Positions 1 to 14,855 of a stretch of DNA of 64,000 nt are shown here, in pieces. This stretch comes from Bacillus cereus (lineage in GTDB: Bacteria; Bacillota; Bacilli; Bacillales; Bacillaceae_G), in assembly GCF_002584535.1 (NCBI RefSeq), contig NZ_NUOT01000073.1, forward strand, positions 1-64,000, in the 5' to 3' direction. The notes under the pieces are model-generated. The model did not search any database, was not told the origin of the DNA, and worked only from the letters and a program-made list of their open reading frames with translations. Both the position numbers and the translations under genes were made by a program. Within the stretch, counting starts at the first letter, position 1. Each line of letters starts with the position of its first letter.

Positions 1-345
1 AATAATCTCGTGTCCTTATCGTTACTTTTCGTTCATGTCTATTTGTTAAATTATTATAATTACGACAATTCAAAAAAGCAAGCTCATTTTTGAAAAAACA
101 TTCATTTTACTATTTATACATTCTTTACTATATAACATAATTATAGCTTTACTTTATATCTTAAAATAATAATTCCGGCAATGAATGAACCTATTAAAAG
201 ATTCCCCATAAAAAAGTGTATATTACATGATAATAACCTATAGAAATATATTCTGGCGCTCAAGCCATACTGAATATCCTTGAAAAAAATGCCTTTACAT
301 TAATTATATTTACATACTTTATCCAACGATATACTATGCGATTTT
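1..345. other. intergenic, no gene seen
   Basis: AT-rich stretch with no convincing reading frame on either strand. On the minus strand an AAGGA-like motif lies within the first 20 bases, so a leftward gene may begin just outside the window. This cannot be decided from the sequence given. Confidence 0.4.
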
Positions 346-984
346 TCAATACAACCTTTTTGTATAACTTTCTTCTAATGAGCGTGCAACTTCTTCTTCA
401 TTTGCGTTCACTTTAGCATGATCAACCAGCATTTTTGCCGCTGATGGTAATACTTCTTTTTCTAACCAAGAATCTGGATTCCATAATTCAGAACGTATAA
501 ATGCCTTAGCACAATGAATGAAACACTCTTCTATTTCTACAACAATTCCAAGGAGTGGATTGCGTCCATTTACCTGCATCTTTTCTAAAATCTCTTCATC
601 GTTTGTAATAGCTGCACGCCCATTTATTCGTAATGACTCTCCAAGCCCTGGAATGAAAAAAATAAGACCCACCTTTGGATTAGATAAAATATTAAGAATA
701 GAATCCACTCGCCGATTCCCCGGTCTTTCTGGAATTACAATTTGATGTTCATTTAAAACATATACAAATCCAGGTGCATCTCCTCTTGGCGAAGCATCAC
801 AATGTCCAAACTTATCTGAAGTGGATATTACAAGAAATGGAGATTTAGATAGAAAATCACAACAATGATGATCAAGTGATGGAATCACTTTCTTTACCGC
901 ACGCTCACTTGGATACCCTAAAATATGACGTAATTCTTCTTCCGTTGAAATGAAAGAATTTATTTTTGTTTCCCCCAATCCCAT
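346..984 (-). CDS. pyridoxamine 5'-phosphate oxidase family protein
   Basis: A 212-residue protein resembling the FMN-binding split-barrel family (the MSMEG_1061-like branch of PNPOx proteins). Conserved-looking blocks are the GDAPGFV segment, the IPERPGNRR segment and the LIFFIPG strand. Such proteins are cytoplasmic flavin or F420-type oxidoreductases of mostly unknown substrate; they are not assumed to make pyridoxal phosphate. The ATG start follows AAGGAG at about 10 nt. It is divergent from the Nudix gene with 83 bp between them, so the two may share a control region. The substrate cannot be inferred. Confidence 0.8.
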   Translation of the reverse strand: MGLGETKINSFISTEEELRHILGYPSERAVKKVIPSLDHHCCDFLSKSPFLVISTSDKFGHCDASPRGDAPGFVYVLNEHQIVIPERPGNRRVDSILNILSNPKVGLIFFIPGLGESLRINGRAAITNDEEILEKMQVNGRNPLLGIVVEIEECFIHCAKAFIRSELWNPDSWLEKEVLPSAAKMLVDHAKVNANEEEVARSLEESYTKRLY

Positions 985-1067
985 TCAATATACACTCCTT
1001 ATTTTTCTTTTTTTCCAAAATTACATATAATTATTGTATACTAAACTATACAGAAAGGGGAATATAA

Positions 1068-1682
1068 ATGACAGAATGGTTAACGATATTTGATCCAGCA
1101 GGAAACAACATTGGAAAAAAACTACGTGATGACGTACATCGTGACGGTGATTGGCACGAAACATTCCATTGCTGGTTTGTGGAAAGAGAAAACGAAGACA
1201 TTTCTTTATACTTCCAATTACGAGCTAAAAATAAGAAAGATTTCCCAGGAAAATGGGATATTACATCTGCTGGACATATTATGCATAATGAAGATGTACG
1301 AATAGGTGGTCTTCGTGAAATAGAAGAGGAATTAGGCTTATCCTTTCAAGCTACTGACTTAGAATACAAAGGCATTTTTAAAATCAATCATGAAATTCCG
1401 CACTTCATTGACCGTGAAATGTGTCATATGTATTTTCACGCTGTTACAAAATCACTTCCGTTCGCACCAGGTGATGAAGTAGAAGATGTAATGAAAATAA
1501 CTGCGACTTCTTTTTTACAGCTTTTAAAAAGAGAAGTCACATCTGCAACAGGAATTTCCATTTCAAACAAAAATGCTGAACCTATTACAATAACATTTGC
1601 AGATATCTATCCATATGAACTTGAATATTATGAATTTGTCATAGAAAAAAGTCGAGACATATTAAATAACAATAATTTATGA
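1068..1682 (+). CDS. Nudix hydrolase
   Basis: A 204-residue cytoplasmic protein with a complete Nudix box: G69, E75, R83-E84, E87-E88, G90, matching G-x5-E-x7-RE-U-x-EE-x-G-U. The N-terminal layout (WLTIFD, GDWHETFHCW) resembles the isopentenyl-diphosphate isomerase/YfcD-like Nudix branch. It should hydrolyse or isomerise a diphosphate-linked substrate using Mg2+; the substrate is unknown. The ATG is preceded by GAAAGGGG. A rho-independent terminator follows, so the gene is probably a single transcription unit. Confidence 0.85.
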   Translation: MTEWLTIFDPAGNNIGKKLRDDVHRDGDWHETFHCWFVERENEDISLYFQLRAKNKKDFPGKWDITSAGHIMHNEDVRIGGLREIEEELGLSFQATDLEYKGIFKINHEIPHFIDREMCHMYFHAVTKSLPFAPGDEVEDVMKITATSFLQLLKREVTSATGISISNKNAEPITITFADIYPYELEYYEFVIEKSRDILNNNNL

Positions 1683-1690
1683 ATTCTGAT

Positions 1691-1729
1691 TGACTCCTAG
1701 CTTATATAGCATGGGAGTCAGTATTTTTT
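1691..1729 (+). terminator. rho-independent terminator of the Nudix gene
   Basis: Inverted repeat TGACTCC (1691-1697) / GGAGTCA (1714-1720) followed by a T-rich run, 8 bp downstream of the stop codon. Confidence 0.75.
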
Positions 1730-1756
1730 AATAACAAGATATACGGAATATTCCCA

Positions 1757-2098
1757 TTATTTCTCCAGCGCTTTTAATCTATTCTCCACCCGTATAAATA
1801 AGCAAATGATTAATACGATCATAAGACCTAAAATAGCAATCATTGTATGCGGATACCTAAATAGCATCCCTATTAAACTTCCTATTAATATCATTAAAAG
1901 TCCATTTTGTTTCATCACTTCCGCACTATATTGATTTCCAACATCCCATAAATCTTTATTTTTCATTGATCGCTTTGTTCGATATCCGTATACTGCGTTT
2001 ATATCTGTTGGTGGATTTTTTTGCAATATGAGTGCAGCTAGTATAAATATAATACCGATTAATATGCTCATTCCTATATTTATAAGTACATATATCAT
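1757..2098 (-). CDS. SdpI family membrane protein
   Basis: A 113-residue protein with three hydrophobic segments (about residues 3-25, 64-80 and 84-104). Between the first two is a conserved soluble block containing GYRT and SMKNKDLWDVGN, the signature of the SdpI/YhfL-type family (PF13630). B. subtilis SdpI is the immunity protein to the SdpC toxin, but stand-alone short paralogs are common and most have no known toxin. No sdpC-like gene lies nearby, so an immunity role is only a possibility. It is convergent with the Nudix gene. Confidence 0.75.
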   Translation of the reverse strand: MIYVLINIGMSILIGIIFILAALILQKNPPTDINAVYGYRTKRSMKNKDLWDVGNQYSAEVMKQNGLLMILIGSLIGMLFRYPHTMIAILGLMIVLIICLFIRVENRLKALEK

Positions 2099-2268
2099 CT
2101 TATCACCTCACATCTCCCTAAACTTTTCCAGTTTACCCCTTTATAATACAACAAAAAGTAATTACAAATCTATATTTTCCATAACAAAAAATACACCACT
2201 CTTGCTTAAATGATGTATAAGCTGAATACAGTATTTTATATTCATAGCTCAAACTTATTGTTTTATAT

Positions 2269-3114
2269 TTACTTTCTCTGTTTCGACGTTTGAAACATGC
2301 TAGGAAGCGTCACAAATCGTGATCCTTTCGCTTTCAGTTCAGGAATAATTCGATCTAATGAATCTACGGATCCCTGCAAGTTCGCTCCTGGCGTCGAATG
2401 TTGTAATACAACACTTCCTGGAAACGCATTACCTAATACAGTATTTGTAATCTTTTCTGCACTTACACCTTTCCAGTCAACTGTATCTACACTCCACTGC
2501 ACAATCATAAAGTTTTGCTCTGTAGCCCATCCCAGCTGTTTTTCACGTATTTCACCATAAGGTGGCCGTATAAACTTTGGCGCATATCCCACCAATTTCT
2601 TCAATATCTCTTCTGTTTTTACAATTTGATTTCGGTATTCTTCATCACTCACTTTAGCTAAATTGGGGTGATTGTACGTATGATTCCCGATAATATGTCC
2701 CTCATCCGCAATTCGTTTTACTACATTAGGATACCTTTCTGCATTTTCACCTAGAAGAAAAAAAGTACCTTTCACACCATAACTTTTTAACTTATCTAAT
2801 ATTTGCGGGGTAAATACAGGGTCTGGCCCATCATCAAATGTAAGAGCAACTTCAGCTTTATTATAGGGACCTGAAAATGCATAAGCATATTTTTCAACCC
2901 ACGAAAACGGAGTCCAAGAACCCCTCTCTTCTTCAGCACCTTGAACCTCATTCTCCATACCGATATTTACCAATTCAAGATTCAAATGAGAAGGATTTTG
3001 ATAATAAAGTACATTTGAATGCGGCACATAAGAATACACATTATAGAAAGGGCTATTACGTTCTGGAGTCCATTGAAAAGGAATAAGCATTTCTGATGGA
3101 TAAAAATAATACAT
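2269..3114 (-). CDS. polysaccharide deacetylase (peptidoglycan GlcNAc deacetylase, Bc1960-like)
   Basis: A 281-residue NodB-homology protein. Motif 1 TFDDGPDP (D94/D95) gives the catalytic base and a metal ligand; motif 2 HTYNH (H145, H149) the metal-binding histidines; motif 3 RPPYG (183-187); motif 4 VDTVDW (209-214); motif 5 LQHS (237-240). The aromatic-rich N-terminus has no signal peptide. From memory, sequence and layout closely resemble the characterised B. cereus Bc1960 enzyme, which removes acetyl groups from peptidoglycan GlcNAc and contributes to lysozyme resistance. The start has AAGGGAGG 8 nt upstream. It appears to be monocistronic. Confidence 0.87.
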   Translation of the reverse strand: MYYFYPSEMLIPFQWTPERNSPFYNVYSYVPHSNVLYYQNPSHLNLELVNIGMENEVQGAEEERGSWTPFSWVEKYAYAFSGPYNKAEVALTFDDGPDPVFTPQILDKLKSYGVKGTFFLLGENAERYPNVVKRIADEGHIIGNHTYNHPNLAKVSDEEYRNQIVKTEEILKKLVGYAPKFIRPPYGEIREKQLGWATEQNFMIVQWSVDTVDWKGVSAEKITNTVLGNAFPGSVVLQHSTPGANLQGSVDSLDRIIPELKAKGSRFVTLPSMFQTSKQRK

Positions 3115-3184
3115 AATAAAAACCTCCCTTACATTTTATATGCCGTTCATTCAAATTTTGTTAGAAAGATACATATTTACAAAC

Positions 3185-3216
3185 CAAAATAAGACCGCTC
3201 CATCATTGGAACGATC
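3185..3216 (-). terminator. terminator downstream of the adenylyltransferase gene
   Basis: Minus-strand hairpin GATCGTTCC / GGAGCGGTC (with G-U pairs) followed by TTATTTT, just beyond the stop at 3240. Confidence 0.6.
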
Positions 3217-3239
3217 TCATTCCTTCCTATCTAAAAAAC

Positions 3240-4112
3240 TTAATAAATAGTTTTACTATCTTGCGGTAAAGACTTCACATGCTTTAAATAACTTGTCACT
3301 CTATCATCATCACCCTGTGGATATTCGTAACCACAATAGCTAGCAATTCCGATTGCAATTTCCCTAAATAAATCTCCCATTACAAAGACGGAATTCCAAA
3401 TCTTTTCATAGTCTGCATTTGAGAATGTATCCATATATTGTTTCCATATGTTATTCTCAAGATATTGTTCAAAAAACTTCCCAAACTTTCCTGCGCTTAC
3501 TGTAAAATTTGTTTTCATCCCAATATGCCATTCTAGCATTTGTATCAGCATATTTCTCACGGGACCTTCAAGCATCCCTTTCACATAGGATAACTCTTCT
3601 CTCCACAATCCCTTTGCGACATTCGTGCTACACCACCAAAACTCATTACAGCAATCCGCAAATTCATTTTCACTTGGTCTTTTTATAAGATAATCTGAAT
3701 CACTTGCTGGTGGAAACGGCTCAATACATCCATCTTTATCTAGAAGAAGTACACTTAGGCTATCTCTATCAAGAAGCTCATTTACTAATTCTACTGGAAC
3801 TAAAGTCAAATCGATTCGGTTCCCGTCTATAAACTGCATCAAATACGGAAACCTGCCATCCTCTGCGGGTGGAACTAAAGTACCTTCTTCTGGCATTTGC
3901 ACAATCATTCTTTCTCCAAATCTATCGATCCAGCTATGATCAGATGTGAATGACTGTATATCTTTCACAACATATATAATATCGTAATCTTGAAAGCAAT
4001 CTTTCTTCACATTTGGATTCACACGAGATCCATTCATAATAACTACACGAATACGTCCATCTTCTCTCGCTGTATTTAATATGAAATCCATCATTTCTTT
4101 TTCGCTTCTCAT
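3240..4112 (-). CDS. aadK: AadK-like aminoglycoside 6-adenylyltransferase
   Basis: A 290-residue nucleotidyltransferase matching the ANT(6)/AadK family in length and layout. It has the GSR motif near residue 28, a QDYDI segment near residue 42 carrying the metal-binding aspartate, and IDLTLVP carrying the third acidic residue. The family transfers AMP to the 6-hydroxyl of streptomycin. Chromosomal homologues are widespread in Bacillus and may give only weak resistance or act on another substrate. A GGAGG motif lies upstream of the ATG, and a terminator follows. Confidence 0.82.
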   Translation of the reverse strand: MRSEKEMMDFILNTAREDGRIRVVIMNGSRVNPNVKKDCFQDYDIIYVVKDIQSFTSDHSWIDRFGERMIVQMPEEGTLVPPAEDGRFPYLMQFIDGNRIDLTLVPVELVNELLDRDSLSVLLLDKDGCIEPFPPASDSDYLIKRPSENEFADCCNEFWWCSTNVAKGLWREELSYVKGMLEGPVRNMLIQMLEWHIGMKTNFTVSAGKFGKFFEQYLENNIWKQYMDTFSNADYEKIWNSVFVMGDLFREIAIGIASYCGYEYPQGDDDRVTSYLKHVKSLPQDSKTIY

Positions 4113-4307
4113 CTTTTTATAACCTCCAAATTTTATTAATCCACTGTACTCTATTCAATTTGGAGGAGCACGAGAAGAATTCTCTGTCTTACATACACGT
4201 TATAACATATCAAACATTTTCTTCATTTTTTCTCCTCCTAATTCTTCATACCTTTTAATTCAGCTCTTTTAAAGGTTGCTGTTGATAATTATCATAAATG
4301 TTCTTCT

Positions 4308-4850
4308 TTACTTCACCTTGTTAAAGTTGTATAAATCTCCATCATCAAATCCTGTTGCAAGTGCAACATCCTTAGCAAATTTCCCTGGATTATTTAGTAC
4401 ATATGTATTCACAAACATAATAGTTGAAGCAATCGTTAAAAATGTTCCTAATACGAGGTTGTTCTCTAACACTCTATATAAATTTTCATAAAGCGTTATA
4501 CTTGGAGATGTGTCCTCTGGAAAATAATCATTATTACTTGCCCAGCCTTCATCATCGCTGTGCCATTCATTTGAGCCGGAAATATATAATTGAATGCTAT
4601 TTTCAGTCTCATACAGTCCGAAATTAAAGGCTACTATATCCTCTTGTGGCTTTTCTTTATCCAGCAATTCATTTAACCATTCCTCAAATTGATTATAACT
4701 AATTTCAAGTGCAGCTTTATAACTATCAAAATTAAAGACATTTTTAATACTTGCCACATTTGCTTCTATCATATCTTTCCCATTACTTAATGTAGGTGTA
4801 TTCTTAATAAAATAATTTAATAAATAATCTATTTGTTCTAAATTACTCAC
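4308..4850 (-). CDS. hypothetical protein (180 aa)
   Basis: I do not recognise this protein. It is acidic, has no signal peptide, and has one moderately hydrophobic helix (about residues 133-153, TFLTIASTIMFVNTYVL). Central beta-like segments (VAFNFGLYE, SIQLYISGS, rich in W/D/E) resemble the look of polymorphic-toxin immunity proteins, but no toxin gene is adjacent. The start is GTG with GAGGTG 5 nt upstream. It begins 29 bp after the stop of the split O-methyltransferase, so it was probably co-transcribed with that gene before the gene was interrupted. Confidence 0.6.
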   Translation of the reverse strand: MSNLEQIDYLLNYFIKNTPTLSNGKDMIEANVASIKNVFNFDSYKAALEISYNQFEEWLNELLDKEKPQEDIVAFNFGLYETENSIQLYISGSNEWHSDDEGWASNNDYFPEDTSPSITLYENLYRVLENNLVLGTFLTIASTIMFVNTYVLNNPGKFAKDVALATGFDDGDLYNFNKVK

Positions 4851-4879
4851 AAACTCACCTCTTTGTCAGAGCTCCCCTT

Positions 4880-5480
4880 CTATTTTTCCGTTTCCTTTAT
4901 TATACGCGCAATTACAAATTCATCATATCCCTTACTCCCTACTGTTTGAATCGCTGTAGCAGTGACACGCGGTTCACTAGCAATTAATTCATAGAAACGA
5001 CGTATTCCCAGCACACGTGGGTCATCACTAGAAGCATCAATTACTTCTCCTTCGCGCACTACATTATCGCCAATAATTAAACTGCCTGACTTTGAGAGTT
5101 TAAGAGCCCACTCAAAATACACTGGATTGTTTTGTTTATCCGCATCAATGAAAATAAGATCAAATGGCTCATAACCTTCCGTAGCTATTTGCTGTAACGA
5201 GTCTATTGCCATTCCTATTCGCACATGAGCCACATCACTCAATTTAGCTCTTTCAATATTAGCACGAGCAATTGCAGCGTGCTTTTCACTTGCTTCAAGC
5301 GTAATGAGACGACCACCTGTTGGTAATGCCCTTGCAAGCCATATTGTACTATATCCACCCAAAGTACTAATTTCTAAAATATTACGAGCTCCTTGAATTT
5401 GTACAAGTAATTGCAAGAACTTTCCTTGAGTTGCTGAAACATCGTGCGCCGGCAACTCAGCTTCAGCATTCACTTGAAGT
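4880..5480 (-). pseudogene. O-methyltransferase, 3' part of an interrupted gene
   Basis: About 197 codons of a class I SAM-dependent O-methyltransferase of the caffeoyl-CoA/catechol type. It has LEISTLGGYSTIWLAR (normally LEIGTLGGYST, the SAM-binding loop), LITLEAS (acidic end of beta-2), LIFIDADK (metal-binding aspartates) and IGDNVVREG. The family normally starts about 25-30 residues earlier. The only in-frame start is a GTG at 5473 with no ribosome site, and the frame closes upstream at 5528. The missing N-terminus lies on the same strand at 10800-10887. The sense CTTCAAGTGAAT joins exactly after GAGGTACTTC there, giving an intact gene of about 227 codons. Confidence 0.85.
5476..5480. repeat. 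left copy of the 5-bp target duplication (GAAGT)
   Basis: GAAGT here and at 10800-10804 directly abut the two ends of the 5481-10799 insertion. Removing the insertion and one copy restores the methyltransferase reading frame. Confidence 0.75.
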
Positions 5481-5507
5481 TGTTTGATTACAAGAAGGTT
5501 GCGGACT
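5481..5507. repeat. left terminal inverted repeat
   Basis: The 27-bp left end contains the first 20-bp site, TTACAAGAAGGTTGCGGACT (5488-5507). It pairs with 10773-10799 at 19 of 27 positions without gaps. Confidence 0.75.
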
Positions 5508-5519
5508 AAAATTAATATA

Positions 5520-5549
5520 AATGCCCATTACAAATGGGCATTCTTTTTT
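5520..5549 (+). terminator. orphan plus-strand terminator near the left end
   Basis: Perfect hairpin AATGCCCATT / AATGGGCATT with a 3-nt loop, then CTTTTTT. No plus-strand gene precedes it; upstream is the antisense of the methyltransferase. It lies 13 bp inside the insertion and may shield the element from transcription entering from outside. Confidence 0.7.
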
Positions 5550-5553
5550 ATTA

Positions 5554-5573
5554 TTACAAGATAGTTCTAAACT
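5554..5573. repeat. subterminal 20-bp site L2
   Basis: TTACAAGATAGTTCTAAACT, sharing TTACAAGA, GT and terminal ACT with L1 (5488-5507) and in the same orientation. Confidence 0.6.
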
Positions 5574-5664
5574 AATCAGACAATGTTTCATACTTCATTT
5601 TACCGTTAATTACAAGATAGTCATGTACTACTTGTTCATACTGTGAATTTAAAATAGAGTCACG
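5572..5664 (-). pseudogene. short coding remnant
   Basis: An open frame of about 30 codons ending in TAG, with protein-like composition (QYEQVVHDYLVINGKMKYE) but no start or ribosome site. It ends within site L2. I do not recognise it; it could be the C-terminus of a lost cargo gene. Confidence 0.3.
5610..5629. repeat. subterminal 20-bp site L3
   Basis: TTACAAGATAGTCATGTACT, third left-end copy in the same orientation, 56 bp from L2. Confidence 0.55.
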
Positions 5665-5733
5665 ATGTTAAAAAAAAGACGCGAAGTTTTGAAAAAAGTT
5701 GCGACGTTTCTAAAAAAGATGTGATGCTTTATC
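5663..5733 (+). repeat. array of 20-bp repeats, copy 1
   Basis: Three tandem units of 19, 20 and 20 bp (the second is CGAAGTTTTGAAAAAAGTTG) plus a partial TGATGC unit. The sequence before it, TGTGAATTTAAAATA, also precedes copy 4 at 22981. Confidence 0.75.
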
Positions 5734-5815
5734 CCATTGGTTTGGACGATCAATAACAATGAACTATTTTTATCTAAGGCTATGTTAAATAATGGTGCTG
5801 ATTTTTATAGTGAAG

Positions 5816-5849
5816 AAGTACGTGACCTCAATTATTAGGTTACGTACTT
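5816..5849 (-). terminator. hairpin downstream of the small membrane protein gene
   Basis: 13-bp arms 5816-5828 and 5837-5849 with one mismatch (AAGTACGT...ACGTACTT), starting just below the stop codon at 5853. The T tract is weak on the minus strand. Confidence 0.5.
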
Positions 5850-5852
5850 TAA

Positions 5853-6035
5853 TCATATACTCTCTTTTGTTGTTTTGATAAACTGCATTAAAATTGCAGT
5901 ACCTGTGAAATTCAGTACAATGCTTGTTCCAAGTGAAACTGCCCATAATACAGTTGGTAACGATACTGTAAATGATAACAGTAAGAATATAATACCTACT
6001 GAAACAAAAGTAAGACCCAAAGACATTTTGTTCAA
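5853..6035 (-). CDS. small two-helix membrane protein
   Basis: A protein of about 60 residues with two hydrophobic helices (LGLTFVSVGIIFLLLSF and VLWAVSLGTSIVLNF) and a short basic C-terminus. The likely start is the TTG at 6035, because GGAGGTG sits 6 nt upstream of it. The earlier in-frame ATG at 6050 would put that ribosome site inside the coding sequence. I do not recognise a family. It lies inside the insertion, opposite in direction to the surface-protein gene. Confidence 0.55.
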   Translation of the reverse strand: MNKMSLGLTFVSVGIIFLLLSFTVSLPTVLWAVSLGTSIVLNFTGTAILMQFIKTTKESI

Positions 6036-6170
6036 TCTAAACACCTCCATTGTAATTATAGTTTAACAGTAGTTACCTTATAATCGCAATTAATATTTGA
6101 ATATACGTTTTTTACAATACAAAGGGCTTATCACACGAAAATGCGAGATGTTCGTAAACTCTTGCTTTTT

Positions 6171-6223
6171 ATTTAGTGATAATAGAGTTGTTTTATTTAC
6201 AATAAAGTCTATTATCACTAAAT
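6171..6223. repeat. perfect 16-bp inverted repeat
   Basis: Arms ATTTAGTGATAATAGA (6171-6186) and TCTATTATCACTAAAT (6208-6223) around a 21-nt loop. There is no T-run on either side, so a simple terminator is unlikely. It lies between the small membrane protein and the first direct repeat. Confidence 0.6.
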
Positions 6224-6322
6224 AATATTGTTTAAAAAAATGGAATAATAATCAGAACCCACGTCATATTTTAATGATTCTCGGTATAATGAAAATAAGA
6301 ATATTTCGACATTCGTATAGAT

Positions 6323-6550
6323 ATGGATATGAAATAAAGTCACGATGTTTATAAGAAAGATGCGAAGTTTTGAAGAAAGGTGCGACGTTTATAAAAAGGA
6401 TGCGATGCTATATCTTTTCAATTAAAGAATTCTAAATGTGTTTTGATTAAACTTTCTTATAAAAATAAGTTACTAAATATTCCGAAAAGACTTTATTTTG
6501 AATGGGATTTTTTCAAAATAAAGTCTTTGTAATTTGGATTAAACTTTATT
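6323..6550 (+). repeat. direct repeat upstream of the surface-protein gene (20-bp array copy 2)
   Basis: It starts ATGGATATGAAATAAAGTCA and contains three 20-bp units (6343-6362, 6363-6382, 6383-6402). Then come a shared CGATGCTATATCTTTTCAAT tail and an AAGACTTTATTTTGAA hairpin. The whole unit recurs downstream of the gene at 8551-8766 with two 20-bp units fewer. Confidence 0.75.
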
Positions 6551-6669
6551 TCAAACCAACAACCATCAAATATTTGATATGCTTCATGTCACAACAGGTT
6601 ATTGATAAATCCCTATAATTTAAATTTAAAAAGACTAAATAAAATGTTAAAGTATGTAATTTTTTGTTT

Positions 6670-6675
6670 TATAAT
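6670..6675 (+). promoter_or_regulatory. candidate -10 of the surface-protein gene
   Basis: TATAAT 73 nt upstream of the ATG, with only a weak -35 (TTAAAG, 17-bp spacer). Confidence 0.35.
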
Positions 6676-6748
6676 GGAACTGTAGTTCATTACAAATATT
6701 TTAGATATTAAAATATTTGTAATCTAAATCAAGCAGGAGGTTGGAAAT

Positions 6749-8521
6749 ATGGGGGAAAAATATGTAATTAGGATTCTAGCTTTACTCTCTGTAGTGTCTC
6801 TTTTCTTTAACTTAATGTTACCGAAGGCTAACGCAGAGGTTATAGCAAACGAAAAGATTCCATCAATCAAAACAACTGCTACTAACAAAACTGATGGTGG
6901 AAAAGAGATTCATTCAAAAGCGGATATCACTATCCAAGACAAGGTAGAATATACTAACTTAGTTGTTGGTAAAGAGTACACTTTAAAAGCTAAACTAATG
7001 AGCAAAGCTACTAAAGAACCATTAATAATTGAGGGGAAAGAAGTAACAGCTGAGACTAAGTTTACTGCAAAAGAAAAGAGTGGGTTTGTAACATTAGACA
7101 TTCCTTTCGTTGGTGCTGAATTACAAGGAATGAACGTTGTTGTGTTTGAAGAACTATATCAAAATGGTGTCTTAGTGGCAAATAACACTGACATTAACGA
7201 TGTAGGACATACAGTTCGATTCGTGGAACCTTTAATTAAAACAACTGCTACTAACAAAGCCGATGGTGGAAAAGAGATTCATTCAAAAATGGATATCACC
7301 ATCCAAGATAAAGTCGAATACACTGACCTAATCGTAGGCAAAGAATACGTAGTAAAAAGTAAACTAATGAGCAAAGCTACTAAAAAACCATTAATAATTG
7401 AGGGGAAAGAAGTAACAGCTGAGACTAAGTTTACTGCAAAAGAAAAGAATGGGTTTGTAACATTAGACATTCCTTTCGTTGGTGCTGAATTACAAGGAAT
7501 GAACGTAGTTGTGTTTGAAGAACTATATCAAGATGGTGAATTAGTGGGAATTAACATGTCCCTTGACGATATGGATCATACAGTTCGATTCGTAGAACCT
7601 GTAATTAAAACAACTGCTACTAACAAAGCTGATGGCTCTAAAGAGATTCATTCAAAAGAGGATATCACTATCCAAGACAAAGTTGAATACACTGACTTAA
7701 TCGTAGGTAAAGAATACGTGGTAAAAAGTAAACTAATGAACAAAGTTACTAAAGAACCATTATTAATTGCTGGTAAAGAAGTAAAAGCTGAGACTAAGTT
7801 TACTGCAAAAGAAAAGAATGGTTTTGTAACATTAGACTTTCCTTTCGTTGGTGCTGAATTACAAGGAACAGAAGTAGTAGTGTTTGAAGAACTATATCAA
7901 GATGGAATCTTAGTGGGAATTAACGTTGACATTGAAGATATGGGTCATACAGTTCGATTCGTAGAACCTGTAATTAAAACAACTGCTACTAACAAAGCTG
8001 ATGGCTCTAAAGAGTTAGACGCTACAAAATCTGTAACTATCCAAGATAAAGTTGAATACACTGACTTAATCGTAGGTAAAGAATACGTGGTAAAAAGTAA
8101 ACTAATGGATAAAGCAACACACAAACCGTTACTAGTTGATGGTAAAGAAGTAACAGCAGAATCTAAGTTTACTGCAAAAGAGAAAAATGGTTCTATCACA
8201 CTTGACTTCACATTTAATGCTTCTGAACTACAAGGTAAAGAAGTAGTAGTGTTTGAAGAACTATATCAAGATGGAATCTTAGTGGGAATTAACGTTGACA
8301 TTGAAGATATGGGTCATACAGTGAGGTTCAAAGAGAAAAAAACAGAAAAATCACAGCCAGAGCAACCTAAAACAGAGCAACCTAAAACAGAAAAAACATC
8401 AAAAGCAGGAACATTACCAGCCACAGGTGGAAATATGTCCTATATGTGGCTCTCAGTGGGTGCTGGTCTTTTGTTACTAATCCTTGGAACTATGTTATTT
8501 ATTAAACGTAGAAATGCATAA
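6749..8521 (+). CDS. VaFE repeat LPXTG-anchored surface protein
   Basis: 590 residues. A signal peptide (residues 1 to about 29, ending ANA) is followed by four tandem 123-residue domains (about 40-162, 163-285, 286-408, 409-531), a Q/P/E/K-rich stalk, LPATG (556-560), a membrane helix and a KRR tail. This is a sortase-anchored cell-wall protein. Each domain ends in VVVFEELYQ, the VaFE block of T-Q ester-bond domains (PF18202-like), which in other Gram-positive adhesins form internal Thr-Gln crosslinks; that chemistry is inferred. The nucleotide repeats are 369 bp and near-identical, which favours copy-number change by recombination. AGGAGG lies 8 nt before the ATG. The gene is the main cargo of the insertion and sits between two direct repeats. 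Confidence 0.9.
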   Translation: MGEKYVIRILALLSVVSLFFNLMLPKANAEVIANEKIPSIKTTATNKTDGGKEIHSKADITIQDKVEYTNLVVGKEYTLKAKLMSKATKEPLIIEGKEVTAETKFTAKEKSGFVTLDIPFVGAELQGMNVVVFEELYQNGVLVANNTDINDVGHTVRFVEPLIKTTATNKADGGKEIHSKMDITIQDKVEYTDLIVGKEYVVKSKLMSKATKKPLIIEGKEVTAETKFTAKEKNGFVTLDIPFVGAELQGMNVVVFEELYQDGELVGINMSLDDMDHTVRFVEPVIKTTATNKADGSKEIHSKEDITIQDKVEYTDLIVGKEYVVKSKLMNKVTKEPLLIAGKEVKAETKFTAKEKNGFVTLDFPFVGAELQGTEVVVFEELYQDGILVGINVDIEDMGHTVRFVEPVIKTTATNKADGSKELDATKSVTIQDKVEYTDLIVGKEYVVKSKLMDKATHKPLLVDGKEVTAESKFTAKEKNGSITLDFTFNASELQGKEVVVFEELYQDGILVGINVDIEDMGHTVRFKEKKTEKSQPEQPKTEQPKTEKTSKAGTLPATGGNMSYMWLSVGAGLLLLILGTMLFIKRRNA

Positions 8522-8550
8522 TAATTAAATAGTTTTTTTACGTAGAAGGT

Positions 8551-8766
8551 ATGGATATGAAATAAAGTCATGATGTTTATAAGAAAGATGCGATGCTATA
8601 TCTTTTCAATTAAAGAATTCTAAATGTGTTTTGATCAGACTTTTTTATAAAAATTGAACATCCAGCCACAAAAAGACTCTATTTTGATCAATCTTTTTTC
8701 AAAATGGAGTCTTTTTGTGTAACACAGAATGTGGATTTGTAAGAGGGTTTTAATCAAACTTTAGTC
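8551..8766 (+). repeat. direct repeat downstream of the surface-protein gene (20-bp array copy 3)
   Basis: Begins ATGGATATGAAATAAAGTCA like 6323. It has one 20-bp unit (8571-8590) before the same CGATGCTATATCTTTTCAAT tail, then an AAAAGACTCTATTTTGA hairpin and AATCAAACTTTA. Confidence 0.75.
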
Positions 8767-8823
8767 CAAAGCTACAATAGTTAAGAAAAGGATAGGAAAA
8801 TTATCAAAAGGGGAGTTGAATTT

Positions 8824-9171
8824 ATGGCTTTAAATCACGAATTTGGCGTAATTAATGACATCAATTATCAAAAAACTTACGAGAGTTACACTCCAGATGA
8901 ACATAACTGTATTTCTGTAGATGATCATATCATCGAAAATTTGCTTAAACCCTTATCGACAATGAAAACGTATTTTCATTCGTTAAAACGCCCTGAATAC
9001 GGTTTAGCGTATTCGAGTATTACAATTATTCCACCTGAATCATTATCTCAATTCTTAGATGTGGTTATATCTTACAAAGATATGAGGCAATCTGTTGATC
9101 TTAACGAATTAGCTAAAAAAATTATTCAAGCAAAAGAAGAGAATAAATATATGATTCACTTTGGAATTTAA
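8824..9171 (+). CDS. hypothetical protein (115 aa)
   Basis: A soluble 115-residue protein with a good ribosome site (AAGGGGAG before the ATG) and normal codon use. No signal peptide or membrane segment. Short patterns such as KTYFHSLKRPEYGLAY and YKDMRQSVDLNELAKKI suggest a small alpha/beta fold, but I recognise no family. It lies inside the insertion downstream of the second direct repeat, in the same direction as the surface-protein gene, with a hairpin after it. Confidence 0.65.
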   Translation: MALNHEFGVINDINYQKTYESYTPDEHNCISVDDHIIENLLKPLSTMKTYFHSLKRPEYGLAYSSITIIPPESLSQFLDVVISYKDMRQSVDLNELAKKIIQAKEENKYMIHFGI

Positions 9172-9246
9172 TTTCTGGAATTAAACAACTTTATTATTCC
9201 TAAACATCATAGAATTGAAAAAAAACTGTGTTTTTTAAACATCTTT

Positions 9247-9283
9247 AATAACCATCTGCCAAAGTGATTGATAGATGGTTATT
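9247..9283 (+). terminator. hairpin after the 115-aa gene
   Basis: AATAACCATCT / AGATGGTTATT (11-bp perfect arms), about 75 nt after the stop and followed by TGTATTTC. Confidence 0.5.
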
Positions 9284-9439
9284 GTATTTCTAAGAATAAA
9301 ATTAAACAATTTTATTATCTCTACACACTTGTAACGATTATATTAAAGGGAAGTATAAACCTGTATTTTAGGAAAAGTTATGATTCCTACTATGTGAAAG
9401 TCATTCTTTATTGAATAAACTGGATTCGAGTCAATATTT

Positions 9440-10660
9440 TGGACACAAAGAAATTAAATCTAAGCTACTTTTTGGGCTAGATCTTCTATTACTTGGGGTG
9501 GGGAGTTTTATAACCAAAGCTACTATGAATCCTCCTGCGGTTATACCATCCCTCGATGTATTCAAATAATGCTAAGTTTGCTTGTCCAAATGTGACATAT
9601 TTTGTACGATATACTTCTTCTTTCTTTAAAATGGCATGAAATGACTCGATACAAGCGTTATCATACGGGTAGCCTTTCTTACTGAAAGACGGCTTTATTT
9701 TATAATTCGCGGGTAAGATTTGAAATTCCTGACTTGTATATTGTGTTCCTAAGTCAGTATGTAGAATGAGCCCTTTTGGTGATTTCTGTGTATAGTAAGC
9801 GCTCACTAACGCTTTTACCACAAGATTCGTTGTCATATTTCGTGAAAATGAATATCCAACAATTTTTTTAGAATACAAATCCATGACAGATGCAAGGTAA
9901 CACCAACCATCTTTTTGCGTGTGAATGTAAGTAATCTCCGCTACCCATTTTTCATTTATTGTCATGGTAGAGAAGTCCTGTTCCAATAGATTTGTACGTT
10001 CCTCTATAGTTGATTTTGATAAATGTGGTTTGTATTTTTTTAAGATAACGGAAAGAATATCTTCTTTTTTCATGAGCCGTTGCACACGCTTTATGCTTAC
10101 TTGTAACCCTTGTTCTAGTAGTATTTGATGAATCTTTGGCGCACCGTAACGCTCTCCACTGTCTTGATGAATTTGTATAATTTTTTTGGTTAATTCTTTA
10201 TTTTCACGACTACGCTTTGACTCTGTTTTATGCTGAGATTGGTAGTAAGAACTTCTTGCTATCCCAAAAGTTTGGCACATCATATGAACAGATTGCGTTT
10301 CTATTTGACAATCAATAAATTGGTGTAATTCTGTATCTTTTATTTTCTCGCGAATATGGCCATAGCCTTTTTTTAAGATTTCATTCTCTTCTTTTAGACG
10401 AAGCGTTTCTTTTTTCATTCGTTTTAGATCTTCTAGCGTCAGTTCATCTTTATCAACTGATGTGATAGGAGAATATATTTTAATCCATTTATAAATGGTT
10501 ACTTCTGATACGCCATACTCACTGCTCAATTGTTTTACAGATTGTCCCGAACAATATAATTCAACAACCATTTTTTTAAACTCTTCATTAAATTTCTTGT
10601 TTGTCATATGTACACTTCCTCCTTAAAACCCCTTGTAAGGACTTAACTAAGTTGTGTCCA
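9440..10660 (-). mobile_element. IS3-family insertion sequence, decayed
   Basis: Ends TGGACACAA (9440-9448) and TTGTGTCCA (10652-10660) form 9-bp terminal inverted repeats with the TG...CA termini typical of IS3 elements. They enclose one transposase gene. No 3-bp target duplication is visible, consistent with an old insertion. The element lies inside the larger 5.3-kb insertion, so it is a later arrival or a passenger and does not explain the outer ends. Confidence 0.8.
9489..10607 (-). pseudogene. IS3-family (IS150-like) transposase, probably inactive
   Basis: 372 codons: an N-terminal helix-turn-helix (YGVSEVTIYKWIK), a leucine-zipper-like segment, then an rve integrase domain. OrfA and OrfB are joined in frame at an A7 run, where related elements use frameshifting. 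Of the DDE triad, D285 (HTDLGTQYTS) and E321 (DNACIESFHA) are present with 35 residues between them. The first position reads WVAEITYI, so E224 replaces the usual aspartate. After GYKTPHPK the frame ends; shifting one base restores a more usual C-terminal tail (VIEDLAQKVA then TAG), so the 3' end is frameshifted. Both changes point to loss of activity. Confidence 0.8.
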
Positions 10661-10694
10661 TATGACTATACTAACTCTATTAATTATAAAACAA

Positions 10695-10723
10695 AAAAGC
10701 ATGACATAAGCTGTCATGCTTTT
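10695..10723. terminator. hairpin near the right end of the insertion
   Basis: Perfect AAAAGCATGACA / TGTCATGCTTTT, T-rich on both strands. It mirrors the orphan terminator close to the left end. Confidence 0.65.
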
Positions 10724-10752
10724 TATCATATGTTTCATAACCAAATTGGATT

Positions 10753-10772
10753 AGTCTACAACTTTATTGTAA
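10753..10772. repeat. subterminal 20-bp site R2
   Basis: On the minus strand TTACAATAAAGTTGTAGACT, directly abutting the 20-bp site inside the right terminal repeat (TTATAAGAAAGATGTGGACT, 10773-10792). Confidence 0.65.
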
Positions 10773-10799
10773 AGTCCACATCTTTCTTATAACTATACG
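10773..10799. repeat. right terminal inverted repeat
   Basis: 27 bp complementary to 5481-5507 at 19 positions without gaps. The outermost bases read CGT on the minus strand where the left end has TGT. Confidence 0.75.
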
Positions 10800-10804
10800 G
10801 AAGT
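10800..10804. repeat. right copy of the 5-bp target duplication (GAAGT)
   Basis: Identical to 5476-5480 and directly outside the right terminal repeat. Confidence 0.75.
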
Positions 10805-10887
10805 ACCTCTTCCAGAATCAGATCAGTTGGCACAAGCATGTCCGTAATGTAATTATCAACAGCCTTCCATTTATCAAAATGATACAT
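10800..10887 (-). pseudogene. O-methyltransferase, 5' part of an interrupted gene
   Basis: ATG at 10887 followed by 28 codons containing WKAVDNYITDMLVPTD and LEEVL, the usual N-terminal helix of this O-methyltransferase family. At 10800 the sense frame runs into the insertion and stops about 14 codons later at TAG. The rest of the gene is at 4880-5480 on the same strand. The ATG is preceded by GAAGGGGATGG at a somewhat long spacing. Confidence 0.8.
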
Positions 10888-10944
10888 GTCAACACCATCC
10901 CCTTCAAATTTATTATAAGTGAAAATTCAGAATAAAAAACAAAT

Positions 10945-10978
10945 AAAAAAAGATTTAGCCCTAAGCTAAATCTTTTTT
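10945..10978 (-). terminator. terminator of the SDR gene
   Basis: Perfect AAAAAAGATTTAGC / GCTAAATCTTTTTT hairpin just downstream of the stop at 10992. Confidence 0.75.
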
Positions 10979-10991
10979 TATTTATAACATC

Positions 10992-11711
10992 TTACGGATT
11001 AGTAGACCAAAGCCCAGCAGATTTAATAAATGTACGTTTATTTAATTTAAGCTGCGCCACGATAAACTCTGCAATATCTTCTGCTTGCATAACTTTATCT
11101 GGATTACCGTCTGTTAATCCTAAGTCTACTGCCATATCTGTTGCAACTGTACTTGGCGTTAAAGCTGTTACACGAATATTGTGTTTACGTACTTCCATCG
11201 CTAATGATTCTGTTAAACCAAGAACACCAAATTTAGAAGCACTGTATGCACTCGTTACTGGCGCACCTTTTTGTCCTGCTGTAGATGAGATATTAATGAT
11301 GTCACCCGACTGTTGTTCAATCATACTTGGCAACGCTGCACGAGTTGCATAGTATACACCCATTAAGTTGACTTGTATAATTTTTTCCCAATCAGCAACA
11401 TCTAGTTCTAAAAATTTTCCGAACTTAGAAATACCCGCATTATTAATTAAAATATCAATAGAACCTAATCCACTTTTTAATGTTTCAATAGCAGTCGTAA
11501 CTTCTTCATATGAAGATACATCAGCAGTAGCAATAACAGCTTTCACGCCTTCAGCTTCCACTTCTTTCGCAACTGCTTTTAAGTTCTCTTCAGAGCGCGC
11601 TAAAAGACCAACATTTACGCCTTCTTTCGCTAAAGCAATTGCTACTGCACGACCAATCCCTCTTCCCGCTCCTGTAATTAATGCATTTTTCCCTTGTAAT
11701 AATTCTGCCAA
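10992..11711 (-). CDS. short-chain dehydrogenase/reductase (FabG-like)
   Basis: About 239 residues, a classical SDR. It has the TGAGRGIG cofactor loop near the N-terminus, NNAG, the catalytic Ser in ISST, and YSASK with Tyr and Lys. The family reduces 3-oxoacyl or related carbonyls with NADPH, and the similarity is to B. subtilis YoxD/FabG-type 3-ketoacyl-ACP reductases. The substrate is not fixed by the sequence. The likely start is TTG at 11711, since GAGGAG lies 8 nt upstream; the GTG at 11720 overlaps that site. It lies just upstream, in position, of the interrupted methyltransferase, separated by a terminator. Confidence 0.82.
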
Positions 11712-11897
11712 ATATAACACTCCTCAATCATTCTATGTTATTTTTTATACTATGAATTCTATCTGCATCTAATCCGAAATGCAATTATGCACTTTGATGT
11801 GCGTAGGTTACTTAAAGGTAACCTATAAATAGAAGAGTGAATGACATTTTTATTTGTCTTCCACTCCTCTATTACCCTATCATTCATTATAATGAAT

Positions 11898-11930
11898 AAG
11901 CAGTGAAGTTAAAGAAACTATCCACTGCTT
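11898..11930 (-). terminator. terminator of the ABC exporter gene
   Basis: AAGCAGTG / CACTGCTT hairpin downstream of the stop at 11956. A second, imperfect hairpin (11829-11872) lies further on. Confidence 0.5.
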
Positions 11931-11955
11931 CAAAATCCAATACTACAATCGCTTT

Positions 11956-13716
11956 TTATAGTGCTCCCTCTTTAATTTTCAGTTGCTGTGTTGCAAATTC
12001 CCGGTACATATCATGAGAACGTAACAATTCATCATGCGAACCACTTCCCGTAAGTTTCCCTTTCTCAATAAAAATAATTTTCTCTGCATCTACAACTGTA
12101 GAAAGTCTGTGTGCAATCACTAAAGTTGTTCTGCCCTTCATTAAATTATTTAAAGCTTTTTGAACAACAGATTCCGATTTACTATCAAGACTAGAAGTCG
12201 CTTCATCTAACATTAAGATTTGCGGATTTCGGAGTAATGCACGAGCAATCGCAATTCGTTGTCTTTGTCCCCCAGATAATTTCACACCACGTTCGCCAAC
12301 TTCTGTATCGAACCCTTTCGGTAAATCATGAATAAATGCATCAACATAAGCCATCGCCGATACTCGTTCTATTTCCTCATCACTTATCTTTTCTTCAACT
12401 CCATAACAAATGTTATCTCGAATCGTTCCATCAATTAATGGGCTATCCTGTGAAACATATCCAATTTGACGTCGCCACGATTGTAATGAATATGTTGAAA
12501 TAGGGTTTTCACCTAATTTTATTACACCACTAGTTGGTTCATAGAAGCGTTCTAATAAAGAAAACAATGTCGTTTTCCCACTACCACTTGGGCCTACAAT
12601 CGCAGTCACTTTTCCTGATTCAATTGTAAACTGAATATTTTGTAATACTTTCTCACCTTCGTTATACTCAAAATCTACATTTTCAATCAAAATTGATTGT
12701 TTTGCATTTGTCACATTAGTGCCCTCTGTATGATTTTCAACCTCATACTCTAAAATTGTATTAATACGTTCTGTTGCACCAATTGCCTTTTGAAATTGTG
12801 TAAAGAACATAGATAGCTGACTCATTGGCATAACAATTTGCACTAAATATAAAATAAATGCCACAAGCTCTCCTGTTGTTAGCACCCCGCTAGAAACTCG
12901 CATTCCACCATATCCTACAATAATAACAAGTAGCGCCATTAAAACAAATGACATAATTGGTGTAATGAATGCTTCAACTTTTCCTTCTTTCAAACCAAAT
13001 TGTAGTAACTTTTGAATTCCTTTGTTACCATTTTCATATTCTCTTGATTCCGTATTTGAAGATTTCACCAAACGGATTTCTGATAATACTTGATTTAAAA
13101 CGCTTGTAAAAGAGGCTGTCTCATCTTGCAATATTTTAGAGATTTTATACATTTTTCTTCCAAGTGGAACTAAAATCAAAACAGATAACGGAATAACAGT
13201 TAACAATAGAACTGTCATTTTCCAGTCTAAAACAAACAATACAATTAATGATCCAACAATTGAAATACCACCCGTTAACAAATTGGACAAGTGCTCTGAA
13301 ATTAATGTTTTTACTACACCTGTGTCATTCGTCATGCGACTAATCGTATCACCAGTCTTATTTTGATCATAATAAGAAACTGGTAAAACAAGAACTTTTT
13401 TCCATAGTCTTTCTCTAATTCCAGCTACAATTTTTTGCCCAATGTAATTGAGCAAATAAATTGATAATCCTGCTGCGATTGTTTGAACAACGAAGAACGC
13501 GACTAAACTAACAATCTGAATTGTATTTATTGAAGAAATTGAAAAATTATCAACTAACCCTTTTGTAAGCATTGGAATAAACAAACTCGCCCCTGTTGAA
13601 AACAAACTCATTACTAATGCAAAAATAAGAATACCTTTCGGAGGATTTGTATCTTGAATAAGGCGTAGAAACTGCCTCCAATTCCCCTTTTCCTTCTCTT
13701 TATTTTGTGTTTCCAT
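11956..13716 (-). CDS. ABC exporter, fused permease/ATPase (BmrA/LmrA-like)
   Basis: 586 residues in half-transporter layout. Six membrane helices occupy roughly residues 28-315 and a nucleotide-binding domain residues 341-586. The ATPase has Walker A GPSGSGKTT (375-383), LSGGQRQR signature, Walker B ILMLDEATSSLD and the H-loop IAHRLST. It should work as a homodimer in the membrane exporting lipophilic compounds or drugs; the substrate is unknown. AAGGAG lies before the ATG. It appears to be monocistronic, and divergent from the hydrolase gene. Confidence 0.9.
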   Translation of the reverse strand: METQNKEKEKGNWRQFLRLIQDTNPPKGILIFALVMSLFSTGASLFIPMLTKGLVDNFSISSINTIQIVSLVAFFVVQTIAAGLSIYLLNYIGQKIVAGIRERLWKKVLVLPVSYYDQNKTGDTISRMTNDTGVVKTLISEHLSNLLTGGISIVGSLIVLFVLDWKMTVLLLTVIPLSVLILVPLGRKMYKISKILQDETASFTSVLNQVLSEIRLVKSSNTESREYENGNKGIQKLLQFGLKEGKVEAFITPIMSFVLMALLVIIVGYGGMRVSSGVLTTGELVAFILYLVQIVMPMSQLSMFFTQFQKAIGATERINTILEYEVENHTEGTNVTNAKQSILIENVDFEYNEGEKVLQNIQFTIESGKVTAIVGPSGSGKTTLFSLLERFYEPTSGVIKLGENPISTYSLQSWRRQIGYVSQDSPLIDGTIRDNICYGVEEKISDEEIERVSAMAYVDAFIHDLPKGFDTEVGERGVKLSGGQRQRIAIARALLRNPQILMLDEATSSLDSKSESVVQKALNNLMKGRTTLVIAHRLSTVVDAEKIIFIEKGKLTGSGSHDELLRSHDMYREFATQQLKIKEGAL

Positions 13717-13929
13717 CTCTATTCATCTCCTTATTTCAAACTCAACGCTTATTTCTAAAATTAGAATAAGATATGAATGTAAACAATTAATCTGATTTTT
13801 GGTAATAAAACACATCAAACCTTATCTTTACAACAGATGTAACCATCTGATATTATTACCTGGTACTTAATATAAATTGAACACCCTATAGTCTATAAAA
13901 AACTATAGAATGATTACTCATATATAACT

Positions 13930-14760
13930 ATGGAAAATATATATTTTCATAGCATACACATCTATCTAATCTTCATTCATCGAAAGGGGTATACCTATAC
14001 CGTGCAAGCAAAAAAGAATTCTGAAAAGAAAACCATTATATTCATTCACGGATTAGTCGGAAATCGTCGTGCCTTCAAAAAAGAATATAAACGATTTTCT
14101 CCTTCTTACAATATTATAACGTATGATTTACTAGGTCATGGTGAAGACAAAGGACAAGCAATAGACTTTTCTTTAGACAGACTAGTACAGCAATTATCAG
14201 ACCTTTATGAAAAAGAAGGTATTCAAGAGGCTCATATTTGCGCCCTAAGCTATGGTTGTTATATCGCTACTCTATTTGCTCACACGTATCCAGAGAAGGT
14301 ATTAAGCCTTTGTCATATTGGTGGTCATTACAATAATCCATCCCTTTTGTATAACGTCTTTCGAAAGTTTTGGGACAAACGTGAAAATGAATATTCCACT
14401 TGGCTTTATCAATATGCAAATACAATTTTCCCAAGTGGTGTATTAAAAGCTAATCCTTTTGCTGTCATTTCAAAAAACATTTATTATCGCTTTGGATTGC
14501 AATTGCACTCATCTATTATTGCCCAATCACTCAAACACCGTCTCGAATTCGATTTGAAATCTCGACTAAGAGAACTATCACAACCTATTCTTTGGGTAAT
14601 GGGAGAACACGATCATCTATATAAATCCTGTTTATTTGATTTAAAATCCATTCTTCCAAACGTTTTATATAAAGAAATTCCGTTAGCAGGTCACGCTGCA
14701 AACTTATTTCGTCCTAACTATTTTCACGATTTGTATTCTAAATTTTTACTTGATTCGTAA
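13930..14760 (+). CDS. alpha/beta hydrolase
   Basis: Up to 276 residues. The core has IIFIHGLVGNRR (oxyanion loop), a nucleophile elbow ALSYG (Ser), GEHDHLY (acid) and AGHAANL (His), so the catalytic triad is complete. These are cytoplasmic esterase, lipase or peptidase-like enzymes and the substrate is unknown. The start is uncertain: the ATG at 13930 has no clear ribosome site, whereas a GTG at 14002 lies about 12 nt after AAAGGGG. The N-terminal 24 residues may therefore not be translated. Confidence 0.8.
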   Translation: MENIYFHSIHIYLIFIHRKGYTYTVQAKKNSEKKTIIFIHGLVGNRRAFKKEYKRFSPSYNIITYDLLGHGEDKGQAIDFSLDRLVQQLSDLYEKEGIQEAHICALSYGCYIATLFAHTYPEKVLSLCHIGGHYNNPSLLYNVFRKFWDKRENEYSTWLYQYANTIFPSGVLKANPFAVISKNIYYRFGLQLHSSIIAQSLKHRLEFDLKSRLRELSQPILWVMGEHDHLYKSCLFDLKSILPNVLYKEIPLAGHAANLFRPNYFHDLYSKFLLDS

Positions 14761-14794
14761 ATACAATCATTAAAGTAAACATATAAAATAGAAA

Positions 14795-14824
14795 AAAAGC
14801 TTTCTAGTTTCCTAGAAAGCTTTT
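14795..14824. terminator. bidirectional terminator
   Basis: Perfect AAAAGCTTTCTAG / CTAGAAAGCTTTT hairpin between two convergent genes. Confidence 0.8.
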
Positions 14825-14855
14825 CCTTATAATATTTAAGAATAAGATTCTCTTA

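Follow-up and report, generated by a model that had tools for sequence, protein, structure and literature searches.

For Tn7, binding of the transposon ends, excision and insertion at a staggered 5-bp cut are established, and Tn7-like transposons of Bacillales are represented by those of pLEW6932 and of the island BCEGI-1. Smaller mobile units are also familiar. Miniature inverted-repeat transposable elements (MITEs) are short, gene-less elements that run from end to end and are flanked by target duplications, in composite transposons a pair of elements flanks a cargo gene, and MIC231, a mobile insertion cassette of the B. cereus group, has IS231 ends and duplications of 10-12 bp. Here we describe a 5.3-kb segment, positions 5481-10799 (hereafter the outer element), in a 64,000-nucleotide stretch of Bacillus cereus DNA (NCBI RefSeq assembly GCF_002584535.1, contig NZ_NUOT01000073.1, positions 1 to 64,000; hereafter the window). 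The segment splits two pieces of one O-methyltransferase gene, and it is very probably a non-autonomous transposon with Tn7-type ends, which was probably moved by a helper in trans. Within it lies a second unit, at 6322-8776, where two short Tn7-type repeats flank an adhesin gene.

The outer element shares its end architecture with the Tn7-like transposons of Bacillales, i.e., spaced sites at the left end, tandem 20-bp sites at the right end and a hairpin inside the right end, as well as the left terminal TGT and the 5-bp duplication. It differs from them in that no tns genes were detected in it, in that it lies in an O-methyltransferase gene and not behind glmS, and in having only two clear right-end sites and a right terminus that reads CGT. 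The likeness to MITEs and composite transposons consists in gene-less short units with duplications, a pair of which flanks cargo with the outermost ends apparently used; unlike theirs, however, the ends at this locus are asymmetric Tn7-type arrays rather than simple terminal inverted repeats, and the two short units stand in direct orientation, each running from right end to left end. MIC231 likewise carries passenger genes between transposon ends without a transposase, but its ends are of the IS231 type and its duplications 10-12 bp long, whereas the ends here are of the Tn7 type and the duplication is 5 bp. The interspersed repeats bcr1-bcr18 of the B. cereus group are short mobile-like repeats too, a likeness of description and not of sequence, and the short Tn7-type repeats could be equivalent to one of them.

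The interrupted gene and the duplication at the insertion point comprise the following features:

4880-5473, minus strand: remainder of the O-methyltransferase gene, a 197-aa open frame (PF01596, E 3.2e-40; up to 73% identity among the matches listed)
5476-5480: left copy of the target duplication GAAGT
10800-10804: right copy of the target duplication GAAGT
10805-10887, minus strand: N-terminal codons of the O-methyltransferase gene (27 codons and 2 bases), assigned by adjacency in homologues

The C-terminal piece is an O-methyltransferase by its PF01596 match, a Pfam search with the 27-codon N-terminal piece alone gave no match, and the insertion point lies about 28 codons into the gene. Each piece was searched for separately, by permissive tblastn, and 80 homologous loci among the matches listed were compared, the best homologue in that list being from a Brevibacillus (73% identity). 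An N-terminal match was present in frame no more than 60 bp before the C-terminal match in 66 of the 80 loci, and in all 66 the gap between the extrapolated ends of the pieces was 9 bp (2 + one 5-bp GAAGT + 2), which is the length expected once one GAAGT copy is removed; no adjacent N-terminal match was found in 14 loci. A preliminary description of the locus, made from the sequence alone, had claimed that the gene halves rejoin in frame when 5481-10799 and one GAAGT copy are taken out, and the homologues bear this out. They also answer the question whether the two halves have homologues in different genes, since in 66 of the 80 loci both belong to the same gene.

The 27-mers that abut the GAAGT copies on the inside match in inverted orientation at 19 of 27 positions without gaps, a value that was already given in the preliminary description and was recomputed here. 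Imperfect as they are (19/27), such repeats might be taken for a random pair lying by chance next to unrelated gene fragments. Random 27-mer pairs drawn from window positions 1-16000 reach 19/27 at a frequency of 7.5e-6 (400,000 drawn), and among the 213,736 pairs of five-base direct repeats separated by 300 bp or more in the first 16 kb of the window the GAAGT pair has the top inverted-repeat score, with seven others reaching 18/27. Given this rank and the 9-bp spacing in 66 of 66 adjacent homologues, chance is untenable as an explanation. The exact spacing in homologues, together with the Tn7-type end sites described below, upholds the earlier view that the locus records a transposition event and not a random rearrangement.

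The ends of the outer element were delimited as follows:

5481-5629, plus strand: left end, with terminal TGT, 22-bp sites at 5486, 5552 and 5608 (spacing 66 and 56) and a hairpin at 5520-5542 (site scan, folding)
10694-10799, minus strand: right end, with tandem 20-bp-spaced sites at 10794 and 10774, then inward a hairpin at 10694-10724; terminus CGT (tns-derived motif, folding)

Both strands of the 64 kb were scanned with a motif that combines 22 bp from each of the two 27-bp outer ends. The new matches of this motif include the second right site (10774, minus strand) and the second and third left sites (5552 and 5608, plus strand), and also five sites in the right-end arrays further inside the element (6347, 6367, 6387, 8575 and 5666, all on the plus strand); these eight rank among the 23 best new matches, the other 15 of which lie elsewhere in the 64 kb. 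A second, independent motif holds no window sequence. It was derived from ten right-end sites of three loci (L200, accession CP031730; G154; and L198, in genome G383; G and L numbers are our handles for genomes and loci), in which the right end lies 27-28 bp behind the last glmS codon and tnsA, tnsB and tnsC are found further in. The best of its seven matches in the window is the second right site at 10774 (minus strand, 26.6 bits) and the third best is the terminal right site at 10794 (minus strand, 15.9 bits), and the left site at 5608 (plus strand) is matched as well (13.0 bits). The right terminus of the window element shares 20 of its 27 positions with the right terminus of L200, as many with that of G154 and 18 with that of L198. 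In G154, the left end located by the independent motif has sites 66 and 46 bp apart, to be compared with 66 and 56 bp in the window, and an exact duplication of AATGT is present between its left and right ends.

The hairpins that had been noted just inside both ends are confirmed by folding. The left one (5520-5542) has an energy of -12.5 kcal/mol, equalled by 3 of 200 shuffled sequences; the right one (10694-10724) has -16.2 kcal/mol on the plus strand (1 of 200 shuffles) and -16.6 kcal/mol on the minus strand (0 of 200). Comparable right ends inspected by eye (L194, L198, G154) carry an inward hairpin in the same way. The term "27-bp terminal repeats" used in the preliminary description is thus right as to the inverted match and needs correction as to their nature, because they are not simple repeats but the outermost sites of multi-site ends. 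Judged by the arrangement of the sites, the termini of the outer element are Tn7-type ends, spaced on the left and tandem on the right.

The assignment of left and right depends on repeats found in other Bacillales. Some part of window positions 4300-9300 is matched in 184 of 397 Bacillales genomes, and not all such matches are repeats. The repeats themselves are of two types: an array of 20-bp units, and a repeat of roughly 147 bp with a hairpin, which reaches about 190 bp with conserved upstream sequence. Both often stand in direct series behind genes, which suggested integron-like cassette arrays with attC-like sites; this reading was rejected once tns-bearing elements, several of which lie behind glmS, turned out to have these repeats as their left and right ends. 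In Rfam searches, eight array loci gave no repeat family (the only hits at gathering score were the glmS ribozyme, a group I intron and the Bacillaceae-1 RNA) and the window gave sub-threshold matches only.

TnsB-type genes (PF09299) are present in 10 of 30 chosen genomes, and in the regions around them the 20-bp array forms the right end, adjoining tnsA, and the long repeat forms the left end. At seven loci outside the window (G048, G319, G154, L129, L141, L198 and L200) the right end lies 27-29 bp behind the last codon of glmS, as called by tblastn with the annotated glmS of L200 (73-76% identity; that of L200 by its own annotation). In G048, glmS (with its SIS and amidotransferase domains) is followed in order by the right end, TnsA (PF08722), TnsB, TnsC (PF13401, PF05621), TnsD (PF15978) and TnsE (PF18623). 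This element, bordered by GTTTG at either side, extends from the right end at 10680 to the left end at 27082, and its second GTTTG shares its final two bases with the next right end, which starts at 27086. Plasmid pLEW6932 (NC_009130), whose annotation lists TnsA, a Mu-transposase protein, an ATP-binding protein, TnsD and TnsE, has TTATC next to both the right and the left end. Between the TnsB of G154 and proteins that carry the annotation Tn7 TnsB, identity is about 36%.

The tandem arrangement can be extensive: on contig C11 of G048 (10680-65377), glmS is followed by two tandem tns-bearing elements and then by five more left ends with a common orientation; one of these immediately follows a right end, and the other four each follow a different gene. 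Elements with tnsABCD also stand behind a gene other than glmS (G321, contig C6, i.e., L175 at 16342-18111; and G137, contig C54). The right end in G321 is preceded by a ribonucleotide-reductase-like gene (PF02867), which may mark another target site.

Target duplications were compared in 31 sequences (the window, 10 contigs and 20 loci) that had been chosen for such ends or tns genes. Their 25 right and 33 left ends form 31 same-strand right-to-left pairs, 10 of which have identical 5-bp flanks, and of the 16 right ends followed downstream by a left end, 9 possess an exact flank partner; with flanks taken from other sequences, the mean was 0.03 exact pairs and the maximum 1 in 2000 rounds. 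The elements with exact flanks include the tns-bearing ones of G048, G137, G321 and pLEW6932. They also include units without a detected complete tns set: one of 1.0 kb in G048, two of 1.9 and 2.2 kb in G267 (the former holding a tnsA fragment), one of 233 bp in G308, and one of 12.6 kb in Pseudalkalibacillus (NZ_CP156675). The exact duplications show that such tns-less units apparently either moved without tns genes of their own or lost them with their ends intact.

No tns genes were detected at the locus described here. In tblastn, the nine Tns proteins of G048 and G154 have no match in the 64-kb window, and TnsA-E of pLEW6932 together with TnsA and TnsC of L200 have no match in window positions 1-16000. 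The only transposase recognised inside 5481-10799 belongs to the following insertion sequence (IS):

9421-10679, minus strand: IS3-family IS, transposase frame 9489-10607 (NF033516, E 5.7e-105)

As the sole recognised transposase in the segment, and one encoded near its right end, this enzyme could be thought to have moved the whole 5.3 kb, by transposition as a transporter-IS or by one-ended transposition. We consider this very improbable. The IS has its own boundaries, with imperfect terminal repeats at 9421-9448 and 10652-10679 (by eye), its similarity to other sequences is confined to about 9408-10690, and no such end is found at 5481; the termini at 5481 and 10799 match Tn7-type sites and not IS3 ends. 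Duplications of 3-4 bp are more usual in the IS3 group than the 5 bp seen here. In comparison with plasmid ISs, similarity runs from 9421 to 10677 in most of the matches listed and up to 13 bp beyond in some; no flanking duplication was seen, and the IS stops some 120 bp short of the outer right end. From these boundaries, the IS is best described as a separate passenger with a putative insertion of its own beside that end. A passage of PMC8649781 gives IS3-family ISs in about 30% of Tn7-like transposons, which fits this role.

The position of the IS bears on a further possibility, namely that the outer element was autonomous when it was inserted, moved under its own power and not in trans, and lost its tns genes later. 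The IS sits beside the right end, where tnsA lies in G048 and G154, and truncated tnsA pieces are present in other loci (L125, L126, L129, L144). On the other hand, no trace of a tns gene was detected in the window, other tns-less units have exact duplications as well, and the 233-bp unit of G308 is, as it stands, too short ever to have held tns genes. Later loss is the less likely course of events here, if a plausible one.

In our preferred reading, the outer element is non-autonomous because no Tn7-type transposase gene was detected, and its movement probably requires a helper transposon. Compared with an autonomous Tn7-like transposon, it has the asymmetric multi-site ends and the 5-bp duplication and lacks detectable tns genes; nor does it lie at the attTn7 position behind glmS, which not every Tn7-like element occupies (e.g., that of G321). 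What it does combine are end sites related to those of tns-bearing elements, a target duplication and the lack of tns genes, as expected of a non-autonomous element. TnsA/TnsB from a resident Tn7-like element elsewhere in the cell would bind the end sites of the outer element, excise the segment and join it to a staggered 5-bp cut, thereby interrupting the gene. The glmS-directed TnsD route is unlikely because the target site is not behind glmS; targeting by a TnsE-type or loose route would be a guess. That helpers exist in the B. cereus group follows from the passage on island BCEGI-1 in PMC2359905, which places two tnsABCD sets behind glmS in B. cereus ATCC 10987.

Several observations weigh against this reading. 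The independent motif also matches the window at 50451 (plus strand, 17.9 bits, second best), 9201 (minus strand, 14.5), 19266 (plus strand, 10.6) and 9373 (minus strand, 9.1), and the sites at 50451, 19266 and 9373 belong to no recognised end. The right terminus reads CGT and not TGT as on the left, and two clear right-end sites are seen in the window versus three or four in three tns-bearing right ends; the outer right end may be worn. The search for further copies of the ends, which the preliminary description had proposed, turned up no close copy in the plasmids searched or in the 397 genomes: plasmid searches with the outer ends gave chance-level matches only (E no better than 0.1 with the left end and 0.09 with the right), the tandem-site pattern occurs in 5 of the 397 genomes, none with the GGACT signature of the window, and plasmid and phage searches returned no copies of the whole element. 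Megablast with window positions 11721-36000 found no match among plasmids, and among the matches listed from the collections searched there was no close relative of the window, and hence no uninterrupted copy of the gene from such a relative and no helper with the same end signature. In the flank comparison, 7 of the 16 right ends are without an exact partner flank, that of the window's inner unit among them, whose duplication (ATAGA/ATAGT) agrees in only four of five bases. Finally, movement in trans is inferred, as no cognate tnsABC was seen and the host DNA examined was the 64-kb window.

The inner unit consists of the following features:

6317-6321: left flank ATAGA (target duplication, 4 of 5)
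6322-6561, plus strand: short Tn7-type repeat 1, a fusion of a right end and a worn left end, providing the inner unit's outer right end (end profiles)
6749-8521, plus strand: surface protein of 590 aa with four T-Q ester-bond (VaFE) repeats and an LPXTG-type anchor (PF18202, PF00746, NF033903)
8550-8776, plus strand: short Tn7-type repeat 2, a fusion of a short right end and a left end, providing the inner unit's outer left end, at 8776 (119.1 bits, left-end profile)
8777-8781: right flank ATAGT

The two short repeats have the same orientation and flank the adhesin, each passing from right end to left end with no gene within. A separate duplication for each repeat was rejected, since the individual flanks (ATAGA/ACCAT and GAAGG/ATAGT) do not match, and this mismatch leads to the composite reading of the unit. 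An empty corresponding site was found on Bacillus arachidis plasmid NZ_CP127373, where sequences matching window positions 6220-6315 and 8799-9328 (about 85-87% identity) lie side by side, 12 bp apart, with the intervening unit missing; the inner unit thus behaves as a single insertion. Positions 6322-8776 therefore appear to form a composite unit in which the adhesin is the putative cargo of two Tn7-type short repeats and the outermost ends are used, the two repeats carrying the gene jointly, much as two ISs would. The exact flanks (CCAAT/CCAAT) of a 233-bp copy of the same kind in G308 support independent movement of short repeats at other places; in two further copies (CP120579, CP079755) the flanks do not match. 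The adhesin has PF18202 matches in four stretches (E 3e-104), PF00746, NF033903 and TIGR01167, and its solved relatives are 8f90, 8dj2 and 7ui8 (E 4e-4 to 4e-3). An adhesin search of the 397 Bacillales genomes, run without a positive control, gave 0 matches.

Tentatively, and at somewhat less than even confidence, the locus may exemplify a wider phenomenon: Bacillales would harbour widespread and largely unnoticed Tn7-type MITEs and small tns-less units that are moved in trans, and pairs of short repeats would spread single genes, such as that of the adhesin, as composite units, in tandem and nested arrangements, to glmS and elsewhere, even into the interior of genes. A left-end query and PF09299 were run against the same sample of 150 Bacillales genomes, with few candidates scored per genome, so that the counts are lower bounds. 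Each matched 38 genomes, 16 of them in common (Fisher p 0.009), leaving 22 of the 38 left-end genomes without a TnsB-type match. Some of these orphan left ends are likely relics or stem from incomplete assemblies. Surveys based on tns genes would miss units that retain only their ends, and the end models used here allow such units to be counted directly. The tns-less units at this locus are nested, bear genes and have broken up a gene, which raises the question whether Tn7-type transposases move genes that are not their own. We found no paper on Tn7-type MITEs in Bacillus in the open-access literature, subscription journals being mostly outside the search; the MITE passage of PMC7043111 concerns plants.

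Four further features lie inside the outer element:

5642-5742, plus strand: a further Tn7-type right end with GCGATG/GCGAAG-like sites (84.1 bits, right-end profile)
5853-6050, minus strand: 65-aa open frame, its DNA conserved in several Bacillales
8824-9171, plus strand: 115-aa protein, also present by DNA similarity beside the empty inner site on the Bacillus arachidis plasmid
9179-9328, minus strand: possible further Tn7-type end with repeated sites and a hairpin by eye (direct repeat 9179/9300; 14.5 bits at 9201)

The right end at 5642-5742 is itself one of the eight sequences from which the right-end profile was built, and its flank, CATAC, matches neither left-end flank in the window. 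Neither the 65-aa frame nor the 115-aa protein has a Pfam or NCBIfam match; positions 5767-6110, around the former, are 73% identical over 344 bp in G384, and positions 8820-9171, which hold the latter, gave a match of 92% identity at the DNA level. The 150 bp at 9179-9328 are conserved in B. arachidis and a few Bacillales, the B. arachidis similarity stopping at 9328, and they look like one more candidate Tn7-type end, the partner of which was not found.

Among the other genomes and records, G088 has 16 PF09299 (Mu-transposase C-terminal) matches, far above any other of the 150 genomes. Repeats of the Bacillales type are present in two records labelled as Gram-negative plasmids, from Klebsiella grimontii (pNY3A, CP079755.1; L145) and Klebsiella quasipneumoniae (pL22-3, NZ_CP031260.1; L151), and the record of a Stenotrophomonas rhizophila GA1 plasmid (CP031730.1; L200) contains, besides such repeats, a Tn7-like element and a glmS locus with sigW, which points to mixed or mislabelled assemblies in all three cases. 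An ABC-F ribosomal protection gene on a Staphylococcus saprophyticus plasmid (NZ_MN909556.1; L147) is followed after about 95 bp by a Tn7-type left end, at positions 8001-8147.

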